From positions 620,001 to 684,000 of the forward strand of contig NZ_CP027858.1 of assembly GCF_005519465.1 (NCBI RefSeq): 64,000 nucleotides of DNA, written 5' to 3'. Under the pieces are notes generated by a model, which was not told where the DNA came from, searched no databases, and worked only from the letters and a program-made list of their open reading frames with translations. Origin of the DNA: Streptomyces clavuligerus (GTDB lineage Bacteria; Actinomycetota; Actinomycetes; Streptomycetales; Streptomycetaceae). The position numbers and the translations under genes were made by a program. This document shows, one piece after another, positions 29,221 to 47,178 of the stretch. How positions within the stretch are numbered: position 1 is the stretch's first letter; each line of letters begins with the position of its first letter.

Positions 29221-30111
29221 TCAGGCGTTCCCGCCGAAGGTGTCGATGCCGGAGATCCGCCAGCCGCCGTCGCCCCGGACGGCGTCCAGCGCGAGCATCG
29301 CGGCGGCGGACGCGGTGCGGCTGCGGCCCTTCCCTGCGGTGGCGCTGGTGCTGTTCTGGTCGGCGAAGACGAGGACCCGTGCCCGGTCGCCGTCGACGCG
29401 CTCCACCCCGCTGTGGGTGACCGTGGTGGTGAGGACGAGTTTCTGCCGGGGCCCCTCGGCCCGTACGGTGTCCAGCAGCTCCCGGTGCCGGGCCACCGCG
29501 CGGCCGGTGAGGTGTTCCCGTACCGCGCGGTCCAGCCGTTCCGGGTCGGTGAAGTCGTACGAGAAGACCGACTCGACCGCGCGGGTGATCCGGCCCTTCA
29601 GCTCGCTGGTCCGGCCGACGTCCACGAGCGCCGTGTTCCGGGTGGCGGGCTCCGCGCGGACGGCGTCCGCGCGGGACCCGGCGTACGCGGCGAAGCCGCC
29701 GAGCAGGACGGTCAGCGCGCCGAGGACGGCAACGCCCCGGCTGCCCCCGGCCCCCCGCCCGAGGAGCCCGCGCCGCCGGGACCTCCCGGCTGTTTCCGGG
29801 CCCGCCGGGTACGGGGTCTCCGTTTCCGGATCAGCCGGAGCCGGGGCGACCGCCCCCCGGGGCACGGAGTCCGGCGCCGCCGCGTCCCGGGCCGTTCCCC
29901 CGTGGTGGACGACCGGACCGGCCGACGGATCCGGCGCCGCCGGAGCGTCCCGCCCCGCGCCCGCCGGGTCCGGGATTCCCGTTTCCGGGGCGGCCCCGTC
30001 ACGGCGGCCGGCCGGGGCGGGCGCGGGCCCCGGGGCCGGTGGCGGGGCGGTCTCCGCGCCGGAGGCGGTGCGGCGGCGGTGGCGGTTGAGGAGGTGGCGC
30101 GTGGTGGACAT
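29221..30111 (-). CDS. Mce-associated membrane protein (Mas) 4
   Basis: A 296-residue protein with a long Pro/Ala/Gly-rich cytoplasmic N-terminus (about 1-120), one transmembrane helix (GVAVLGALTVLLGGFAAYAG, about 125-144) and an extracytoplasmic domain of about 150 residues. That domain has the Mas pattern: Arg-Asn-x-Ala near the helix, a VFSYDFTDPERL segment, and LVLTTTVTHSGVERVDGDRARVLVFADQ. Mas proteins co-occur with Mce operons and are thought to stabilise the complex. The gene is last in the run; a ribosome site AAAGGAACC precedes ATG 30111. The assignment rests on context plus the conserved C-terminal domain. Confidence 0.82.
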   Translation of the reverse strand: MSTTRHLLNRHRRRTASGAETAPPPAPGPAPAPAGRRDGAAPETGIPDPAGAGRDAPAAPDPSAGPVVHHGGTARDAAAPDSVPRGAVAPAPADPETETPYPAGPETAGRSRRRGLLGRGAGGSRGVAVLGALTVLLGGFAAYAGSRADAVRAEPATRNTALVDVGRTSELKGRITRAVESVFSYDFTDPERLDRAVREHLTGRAVARHRELLDTVRAEGPRQKLVLTTTVTHSGVERVDGDRARVLVFADQNSTSATAGKGRSRTASAAAMLALDAVRGDGGWRISGIDTFGGNA

Positions 30112-30153
30112 ACGGGTGGCGGTTCCTTTCGGGGGCGCGGGGCGGGGGCGGGG

Positions 30154-30684
30154 TCAGTCGGTCGGCGCCGCGCCGACGGTGGGCTGTCCGAGGGCGCTGA
30201 GCTTCCACCCCTCGGGGGTCCGGGTCAGCTCGCCCAGCATCCGGCTCTCCTTGCGCACGGGCTCCGTCTTCGGCGCCGTCACCGTGATCCGCAGCGCGAC
30301 CAGGACACTCGCCCGGCCCGCCCGGTCGTCCAGCTCGGTCACCGCCCCGGAGACGACCTCCGCGCTGCTGACGGTCCGCGCCCGCTGGATCTGCCGCTCG
30401 AACTCCCCCCGGCCGTCGGTGAGCTGCTTCCGCAGCTCACCGGTGGCGGAGTCCTCCCAGGTGTCGAGCCCCCGGGCGAGGTCGCGGTGGTCCAGGGTGT
30501 TGAGGTTGAGGATCGCCTGCTCCCCCGCGGCCAGCGCCCGGTCCCGCTCGGCGGCGAAGGCCGCCCCGTCGTCGTGGGCCGCCGCGTACCAGTCCCAGCC
30601 GTTCCAGCCCGCCCATCCGGCGGCGCCGACGGTGAGCGCGAGCGCCGCCGCCAGAAGCGGATTGAACCTGCTGCGTGGTGCCAT
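30154..30684 (-). CDS. Mce-associated membrane protein (Mas) 3
   Basis: A 176-residue protein with a single N-terminal anchor (about 10-30, rich in Ala, Gly and Trp) and an extracytoplasmic domain ending in a beta-rich GELTRTPEGWKLSALGQ segment. The ending resembles that of the first Mas protein (LARTPDGWKVESLD). ATG 30684 follows GGGGAGAAAGGGA. A 75-base gap separates it from the previous gene, the widest gap among the Mas genes, but no terminator is seen there. It probably packs against the Mce hexamer in the membrane; this is inferred from genomic context. Confidence 0.78.
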   Translation of the reverse strand: MAPRSRFNPLLAAALALTVGAAGWAGWNGWDWYAAAHDDGAAFAAERDRALAAGEQAILNLNTLDHRDLARGLDTWEDSATGELRKQLTDGRGEFERQIQRARTVSSAEVVSGAVTELDDRAGRASVLVALRITVTAPKTEPVRKESRMLGELTRTPEGWKLSALGQPTVGAAPTD

Positions 30685-45400: not shown

Positions 45401-45981
45401 GGAAGGTTCCTCCGAATTCGTCGGTGATCCCGCACTGCTTGCGACGCGTTCCACCACGGATGTGGGGGGAGCGGTGGTTCGCGGCACGACCGAATCCCGT
45501 CGACGCGTCCCATGGGAATCGGCCACCCGGCATGTGTGACGCCGCCAGACGTTACTTGCGGGAAACATGGCGCACAATCCCGCCGTTCATGATTCTCCCG
45601 AGGAGATTTTTTCCTCGTACCGGAGTGAGTGGTTCAGTACTGCTCCTTTGTCATTGTGTGCGCAATTCCGCTGCCGGGGGCCGTTTCCCCGGGAACGGCC
45701 GGAACGGGTCCTGTCACCCGCCGACAGTGCTCCGGCGCGCGGCGGCGCCATCGCCGCGGCGCGCCGGGCCGCCCGGGCCGCGCCCCGGTGCCGCGCGCCT
45801 CCGCGGGGCGGGCGCGGCACCGCGTCGCACCCGCCGGAAGCGGCCCTCTGCGGAGCTTGGCCAAAAACGCTCCCCGGGCCCCTCGGCCGTATTCCGCGAA
45901 GTGGTGTCCTCCGCTCCGGGGTTGGTCTATGTTCAACCAGCCGAGGCGAGGGGAGAGCGCGGACACGGGAGGGGGACAGCC
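45401..45981. promoter_or_regulatory. Divergent control region between Mce operon and PucR regulator
   Basis: A 581-base gap, AT-richer than average around 45540-45660. It contains a TTACTTGCGGGAA element (45552-45564), a small CGAGGA/TCCTCG hairpin with a T-rich loop (45599-45617), and a GGTTG/CAACC dyad (45920-45938) just ahead of the pucR ribosome site. Both promoters should lie here. No gene was supported. Confidence 0.55.
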
Positions 45982-47178
45982 ATGCGGGGAACCGTCGGCC
46001 CGTCGGAGACCGGGGAGGCGCTGGGGCCGCTGCCCCAGGAGTTCGCGGCGATCATCCGGCCCGAACTGCCCGGACTGATCAAGGAAATAGGCGTCGAGGT
46101 CACCCGGGCCTATCCCGAATACGCCCGGCTGCTCAACGGGCCGTTCGGACACGGCATCCGGGTCGGCGTCGAGCAGAGCATCTCCGTCTTCGTCGACCAG
46201 GTGGCCGAGCCCTCCGCCCCGTCCACCCTGCGCGACGAGATGTGCCGCAGATTCGGCCGCTACGAGGCGTACGAGGGGCGCACCCTCGACAGCCTCCAGG
46301 GGGCCTACCGGCTGGGCGCCCGGATCGCGCTGCGCCGGGCGCAGAAGGTCGGCCGCAGCTACGACCTCTCCCCCTCGACGATGCTCGCCTTCGCCGACGC
46401 GCTCTTCGCCTATGTCGACGAGCTGGAGTCGCTGTCCCGCGAGGGCTATCTGGAGGTGCGCTCCCGGGCCGGGGAGCAGCATCAACTGCTGCGCCGCCGA
46501 CTGCTCCACCTGCTGCTCGCAGGGCCGCCCGTGCCGCGCACCGCCGTCGCCGAGCTGGCCGACCAGGCGGCGTGGCCGCTCCCGGCGCAGGTCACCCTGG
46601 TGGCCCTGCGCTCCCCCGCCGTCCTGGAGCCGGGCGATCTGCCCCCGGACGTGCTGGCCGACCTCGGTGATCCGCAGCCCCATCTGCTGGTGCCGGGGCC
46701 GGTGGACGAGGCCCGCCGGGGGGTGCTGGAGCGGGCCCTGCTCGGCAACCGGGCGGCGGTGGGCCTCACCGTCGCCACCGCGGACGCCCATGACTCCATC
46801 CGCTGGGCGCGGCGCACCCTGGAGCTGGTGGACAGCGGGGTGGCCGCGGACGGTCCGCTGGTGTTCAGCGCGGACCATCTGGTGTCGCTGTGGCTGCTCG
46901 CGGACCCGGGGCTGCTCGACCAGCTCGCACGGCGGGAGCTGGCCCCGCTCGCCGCGCTCACCCCGTCCCGGCGCGACCGGCTCATCGACACCCTGCGGAT
47001 CTGGCTCGACACCCGGGGCACCGCGGCGCGGATGGGCGAGCTGCTGGACGTCCATCCGCAGACGGTGCGGTACCGGATGCGGAATCTGGACACCATCCTG
47101 GGCGAGCGGCTGCGGGACACCGACCGGAGGTTCGCGATCGAGGTGGTGCTGCGGGCGCTGCGGCTGCGGGGCCGCTGA
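45982..47178 (+). CDS. PucR-family transcriptional regulator
   Basis: A 398-residue regulator. The N-terminal part (about 15-180) is a helical sensor-like domain (MCRRFGRYEAYEGRTLDSLQGAYRLGARIA), and the middle resembles the GGDEF-like PucR region. The C-terminal helix-turn-helix (about 335-395; TRGTAARMGELLDVHPQTVRYRM) is the PucR HTH_30 type. ATG 45982 follows GGGAGGGGGA. It is divergent from the Mce operon, and regulators of this class often sit beside actinobacterial mce or sterol genes. Control of that operon is therefore likely but inferred; the effector is unknown. Confidence 0.87.
   Translation: MRGTVGPSETGEALGPLPQEFAAIIRPELPGLIKEIGVEVTRAYPEYARLLNGPFGHGIRVGVEQSISVFVDQVAEPSAPSTLRDEMCRRFGRYEAYEGRTLDSLQGAYRLGARIALRRAQKVGRSYDLSPSTMLAFADALFAYVDELESLSREGYLEVRSRAGEQHQLLRRRLLHLLLAGPPVPRTAVAELADQAAWPLPAQVTLVALRSPAVLEPGDLPPDVLADLGDPQPHLLVPGPVDEARRGVLERALLGNRAAVGLTVATADAHDSIRWARRTLELVDSGVAADGPLVFSADHLVSLWLLADPGLLDQLARRELAPLAALTPSRRDRLIDTLRIWLDTRGTAARMGELLDVHPQTVRYRMRNLDTILGERLRDTDRRFAIEVVLRALRLRGR

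Follow-up and report, generated by a model that had tools for sequence, protein, structure and literature searches.

The window analysed here is a whole stretch of 64,000 nucleotides of the Streptomyces clavuligerus genome (RefSeq assembly GCF_005519465.1, contig NZ_CP027858.1, positions 620,001 to 684,000 of the forward strand), and coordinates below count from its first letter. It carries an mce operon preceded by the genes of three secreted proteins, which we call S1, S2 and S3, and by a divergent gene for a PucR-type regulator. We propose that these genes form a PucR-linked module in which secreted proteins, probably lipid carriers, are the dedicated partners of one lineage of actinobacterial Mce transporters, and we put the probability of this reading at about one half. 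The partnership of the secreted proteins with this Mce lineage is well supported by genome comparison; that they capture, shuttle or carry lipids is our inference. What the comparison establishes is the co-occurrence of the genes, their adjacency through inversion and reordering, the separateness of the mce lineage, a common promoter-like element and a hairpin specific to S1. The transporter is of a known kind. What appears to be new is the group of secreted genes as a module, its confinement to a single mce lineage and the control element that goes with it, and no description of any of them was found in the open PMC literature, subscription papers lying outside that search. Outside the cell, the route by which hydrophobic substrates travel to or from Mce tunnels is little understood. 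The module offers specific secreted proteins as candidates, together with a regulator and a control element, in harmless and culturable Streptomyces, so that the question becomes directly testable.

A secreted trio beside one mce lineage

In S. clavuligerus, a leftward run of 16 genes reads S1, S2, S3, mlaF, two yrbE, six mce and four mas, with pucR diverging from it. An earlier note on this DNA had given the same coordinates and gene order, which proved correct on re-inspection, and had proposed that the secreted proteins belong with the mce operon. To place the trio among its relatives, each component was searched for in one sample of 101 Streptomyces genomes, with S2 and S3 counted as strong or full-length at E below 1e-80. 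MlaE, the YrbE permease domain, is present in 44 of these genomes, and a tree of YrbE proteins divides their mce operons into two splits, type 1 and type 2, each with a support of 1.0. Type 2 occurs in 28 genomes, one of which (G006) has type 1 too, and type 1 alone in 16. Full-length S2 was found in 27 of the 28 type-2 genomes and in none of the 73 others, and the 28th (G050) has a piece of S2 at a contig end. Strong S3 follows the same pattern (24/28 against 0/73), with weak partial matches in G050 and in four of the 73. A single-sequence search recovered S1 in 23 type-2 genomes and in none of the 73, and a profile added four more, bringing S1 to 27/28. MlaE lies at most 6 kb from S3 in 23 of 24 cases; the exception, G017, is due to an intervening contig break, and its S1 is about 2 kb from MlaE. 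The earlier note's view thus gains support, and its fear that the genes might lie mostly away from mce operons is not borne out, as full-length S2 is confined, among the 101 genomes, to those with type-2 mce.

Gene order points the same way. A contig scan gave 198 loci with an S2 relative, and among the best 80 of these 198, to which organism names were attached, MlaF is present in 77, PucR in 77, S1 in 77, S3 in 75 and all five genes, S2 included, in 72; of the eight incomplete loci, six run up to a contig end and two (L120 and L125) lack S3. Three arrangements occur: the trio is inverted between PucR and mlaF in 46 loci, has the S. clavuligerus order in 15 and reads S3-S1-S2 in 11, and some loci carry two S1 genes. 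Judged by these arrangements, the trio stays between PucR and mce despite changes of orientation and order. Because of this synteny and of the co-occurrence, the secreted genes are not chance neighbours of the operon.

The association extends beyond Streptomyces. An Actinomadura locus (L116), on a short contig, has S2 beside a type-2 mce operon. In a class-wide sample of 197 genomes, with at most 15 candidates scored per genome, the S1 family occurs in nine, five of them Streptomyces and four belonging to a second family (f7), probably the Nocardioidaceae by inference. All nine have MlaE no more than about 6 kb from an S1 gene, and any MlaE at all is present in 64 of the 197. The four f7 genomes have PucR, one to five copies of S1 and two secreted proteins resembling the C-terminal domain of S2 (S2-C) upstream of mlaF-yrbE-mce, on the opposite strand in one of the four; neither S3 nor DUF6801, the Pfam family of S2, was found at these four loci. 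In a tree of 64 YrbE pairs, type 2 and these four form one split (0.968), outside which fall type 1 and seven f7 mce operons without S genes. Neither S1, S2 and S3 nor PucR turned up in 18 type-1 loci or in the seven unlinked f7 loci (stretches of 9 to 20 kb). A phylum-wide sample of 396 genomes, searched with the S2 profile and three candidates scored per genome, gave four Streptomyces; matches that were weak and partial came from G308, itself one of the f7 four, and from G401 and G226. The stretches around the S2-like matches of the last two contain no mce genes.

It could be argued that the secreted proteins are adhesins, or functionally unlinked genes that sit beside mce by shared descent, since synteny is common to related species and outer-membrane adhesins such as OpcA figure in the fold lists discussed below. 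We consider this very improbable. The trio has held its place between PucR and mce through inversion and reordering, every one of the 101 genomes that has full-length S2 also has type-2 mce, the linkage recurs in a second family, type-1 mce loci have other neighbours, and the promoter-like element precedes both units of the module.

Some observations were made in passing on these loci. By eye, six type-1 loci (L041 to L045 and L153) have a sigma-factor-like open reading frame (ORF) upstream of mlaF in five cases and a different secreted-looking one in four; rplJ/rplL-like ORFs adjoin all five f7 mce operons without S genes viewed in the same way (L147, L148, L150, L152 and L154). L135:9190-9828 encodes a secreted S2-C-like protein, about 210 amino acids (aa) long, that stands alone in a stretch without an mce gene, about 1.6 kb from an acyl-CoA-ligase-like ORF.

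Control element, hairpin and transcription

The PucR-type regulator announced in the earlier note is confirmed by its HTH_30 domain (E 4.8e-14); its gene lies on the plus strand at 45982..47178, 45982 being the likely start, and diverges from the run. Between it and S1, at 45548..45577 on the minus strand, is a 30-bp promoter-like element of the form TTGT-N7-GTTTC-N6-GTAACGTC. A word-pair search found GTTTC-N6-GTAAC in 62 of 73 divergent intergenic regions, all 62 copies pointing at the first secreted gene, S1 or S3, and a related copy, GTTAC-N4-CCGTA, points at mlaF in 43 of 48 inverted loci. When one degenerate expression is used to cover both copies, 64 of 74 loci have the element ahead of the first S gene and again ahead of mlaF (14/15 of S. 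clavuligerus type, 41/48 inverted and 9/11 with S3 first); the two loci without S3 have a single copy, upstream of S1, and three of four loci of unclassed arrangement have none. No copy was found in the controls, namely reversed sequences, six type-1 loci and eleven f7 loci. These counts come from the loci in which the element was discovered and are therefore descriptive, and shared ancestry of the intergenic DNA inflates them; such ancestry does not, however, explain why the two copies in a single locus are alike. In most relatives, then, sequence comparison gives the trio a promoter-like element of its own.

The element can be read as TTGTGC and TAACGT separated by 17 or 18 bases, in keeping with a Streptomyces promoter whose spacer is conserved; a simple sigma-70 scan found no promoter. 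In the S. clavuligerus genome, GTTTC-N6-GTAAC occurs exactly at two sites, one of which is this locus, and with one mismatch at 48 sites against 13 in the control. The other exact site is at G000:C1:5485577-5485592 (L157). We propose that PucR senses some signal and may switch the module through this element.

In S. clavuligerus itself only the S1 copy of the element is present and the gap between S3 and mlaF is 44 bp, so that the two units appear fused. Still, a hairpin with a perfect 12-bp stem lies 3' of S1 (44703..44736, minus strand), within the 194 bp that separate S1 from S2; S2 and S3 are 46 bp apart. Perfect stems of at least 9 bp follow the S1 stop codon in 63 of 78 loci, and the same count is far lower after S2 (5/79), S3 (6/76), MlaF (1/78), YrbE-B (0/78), MceA (0/78) and PucR (7/77). 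The hairpin is thus specific to S1, while the folding of the whole S1-S2 gap is unremarkable (z -1.47). It makes one uniform transcript doubtful. The single co-directional run described in the earlier note therefore stands as an arrangement of 16 genes and is weakened as a transcriptional unit. That note had also weighed separate transcription of the trio as a point against its own proposal, and here the picture is divided: most relatives carry the element at both the first S gene and mlaF, and S. clavuligerus has one run and one copy.

Published expression data bear on this locus. In an S. clavuligerus strain free of pSCL4, SCLAV_5177 and SCLAV_5181 to 5192 are reported as down at each of three times, and the authors describe these genes as orthologues of the mce operon of S. 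coelicolor (PMC5702194). The S. clavuligerus genome has two MlaE matches, both at this locus, hence one mce operon, which makes the operon of that study most likely this one. Numbering would make SCLAV_5181 to 5192 the two YrbE, six Mce and four Mas genes, so that MlaF would be 5180, S3 5179, S2 5178 and S1 5177; an alternative count from MlaF would make SCLAV_5177 the PucR gene. S2, S3 and a further gene do not figure among the down genes in the part of the study available, which weighs mildly against full co-regulation of the module.

Secreted proteins and their possible role

S1 (44765..45400, 211 aa, GTG start), S2 (42762..44570, 602 aa) and S3 (41687..42715, 342 aa) are all encoded on the minus strand. 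In agreement with the signal peptides given in the earlier note, they have Sec-type N-termini, and their cysteines number four, eight and six in S1, S2 and S3; signals and lipoboxes were judged by inspection and not with a predictor, and by the same inspection none of the three has a lipobox. The note had also called all three proteins of unknown family. This does not hold for S2, which matches Pfam DUF6801 (PF20611) with 50.7 bits against a cut-off of 26 and so is not without a family; it fits S1, for which Pfam gave nothing at E 1 or better, and S3, whose only Pfam match is below cut-off. DUF6801 matches neither S1 nor S3, and NCBIfam gave nothing meaningful for any of the three. No paper on DUF6801 was found in the open PMC literature, a search to which subscription papers were external. 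Besides the full-length S2 counted above, weaker N-terminal DUF6801-like matches occur in seven of the 73 genomes without type-2 mce (G014, G038, G045, G051, G060, G064 and G084).

S2 consists of its DUF6801 part, a low-complexity stretch and a C-terminal domain that structure prediction, as for S3, models as a beta-barrel. Foldseek found nothing at E 0.001 or better for these two models. They show middling matches to many beta-barrels, including some outer-membrane adhesins such as OpcA, and the lists of a structure aligner give middling Z scores to TT1927b and other barrels. Sequence searches against the PDB gave relatives only at E 0.07 to 0.19, and none for S1. Among the structures in the aligner lists, the modelled S3 and S2-C would thus have no clear relative, and the clear unrelated fold, such as an adhesin, against which the earlier note had warned did not emerge. 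A common ancestry of S1, S2 and S3 was considered and rejected, as the hhalign local probabilities between their profiles are all below 5%; the S2-C and S3 models nonetheless resemble the same kinds of barrel.

From these elements we can sketch a lipid relay in a Gram-positive bacterium. S3 and S2-C would be disulfide-bonded beta-barrels holding a hydrophobic compound outside the membrane, which they would pass to an Mce tunnel powered by MlaF or, less likely, receive from it. DUF6801 would anchor S2 at the surface, and S1 would be made in excess, as suggested by its duplication in some loci and its own hairpin. Such co-regulated carriers (S1 in excess, S3 and surface-held S2-C) would then be the extracellular shuttle of one Mce lineage, an analogy that we advance only tentatively. 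If true, the relay would take the part that the shuttle protein MlaC plays in the periplasm, here in a bacterium that lacks an outer membrane and with families without a described function. A fixed secreted set, kept in many Streptomyces with a regulator, a DNA element and Mce, suggests at any rate that extracellular lipid-handling proteins cooperate with the transporter, and it gives a functional context to the uncharacterised families S1, S3 and DUF6801/S2-C.

The secreted proteins might instead carry no lipid and serve as structural or docking parts, which would brace the Mce tunnel within the cell wall or tether it to the surface. We find this unlikely, because the several different secreted families, the duplication of S1 in some loci and its hairpin suggest an abundant free protein, and none of the three shows a lipobox on inspection. 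A reversal of the flow is another alternative: Mce would move lipid outward, and the barrels would accept it or spread it on the surface of the hypha or spore. None of our results sets the direction of transport. The actinobacterial Mce systems of known role are importers, and we regard export as even less likely than a docking function. In favour of export, the study of the pSCL4-free strain places the S. clavuligerus mce block among genes of environmental adaptation and differentiation whose expression falls in a strain that forms aerial mycelium poorly (PMC5702194).

As to what the proposed relay might carry, steroids were considered as a general substrate and set aside. The steroid-ring marker KshA_C scores strongly (E below 1e-85) in four of the 28 type-2 genomes (G023, G070, G074 and G076) and in four of the 73 others, and its absence at that score from the remaining 24 means that steroid-ring catabolism is no general requirement. 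Weaker matches to the KshA_C family occur in 22 further genomes, S. clavuligerus included.

Comparison with known systems helps to place the module. The Gram-negative Mla pathway resembles it in the proposed role, a soluble protein passing lipid to or from an MCE complex; S1, S2 and S3, however, have no match to the MlaC Pfam domain at E 1 or better, and S3 and S2-C are predicted barrels. For these barrels, DynF and YceI-type or lipocalin-like proteins (6ubl, 1wub) are among the closest known systems. Operons of binding-protein-dependent ABC importers likewise have a secreted first gene and then a hairpin before the transporter genes, but S1 to S3 lack a lipobox by inspection and match no known substrate-binding-protein domain in Pfam at E 1 or better. 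Mycobacterial Mce1 and Mce4 share the transporter architecture of the S. clavuligerus locus, in a cell envelope that, unlike that of Streptomyces, has a mycomembrane. Actinobacterial mce operons, including Streptomyces mce6, likewise place the gene of an Mkl/MlaF ATPase ahead of those of two YrbE and six Mce proteins, with Mas genes coming after (Casali and Riley, 2007; PMC1810536); here S1 to S3 and PucR precede the ATPase, and the available part of the mce6 account mentions no such neighbours. The type-1 loci, which also differ from S. clavuligerus in having neither the trio nor PucR, may correspond to mce6. In a tree that has no named S. coelicolor sequence, the S. clavuligerus YrbE pair groups with type 2 and is separate from type 1.

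Transporter genes and surroundings

By gene content, the transporter is of the ordinary actinobacterial Mce type. All its genes are on the minus strand, with overlaps of 4 bp at most junctions. The MlaF/Mkl-type ATPase (40665..41642) has an ABC_tran domain (E 4.3e-27) and MlaF as its top NCBIfam match, under the model cut-off; YrbE permeases A (39787..40668) and B (38978..39781) match MlaE (PF02405) at E 3.2e-67 and 1.6e-63. MceA (37746..38981; Mce4_CUP1 E 3.7e-79), MceB (36718..37749), MceC (35597..36730), MceD (34398..35600), MceE (33208..34401) and MceF (31982..33211) all have Mce4_CUP1 matches and an MlaD domain above the Pfam cut-off, and MceE is a lipoprotein according to a lipobox seen by inspection. 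Four Mas-like genes close the run. The first (31428..31985) is assigned by position and an N-terminal hydrophobic stretch, the second (30760..31431) and the fourth (29221..30111) by position, all three having no Pfam match, and the third (30154..30684) has a SnoaL_4 match below cut-off (22.6 against 24 bits).

Around the module, the gene at 48446-50227, beyond PucR, encodes an FAD-dependent protein of the amine-oxidase family with a weak similarity (89 bits, where the cut-off is 283) to the hydroxysqualene dehydroxylase HpnE, and a close homologue of it lies near the module in L120 and L125. About 25 kb from the operon, at 3887-6136, is a fused enoyl-CoA hydratase/3-hydroxyacyl-CoA dehydrogenase of fatty acid oxidation. 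The region 52303-63486 is a plant-polysaccharide cluster with two GH28 pectinase-like genes, a LacI regulator, an alpha-galactosidase and other secreted proteins.

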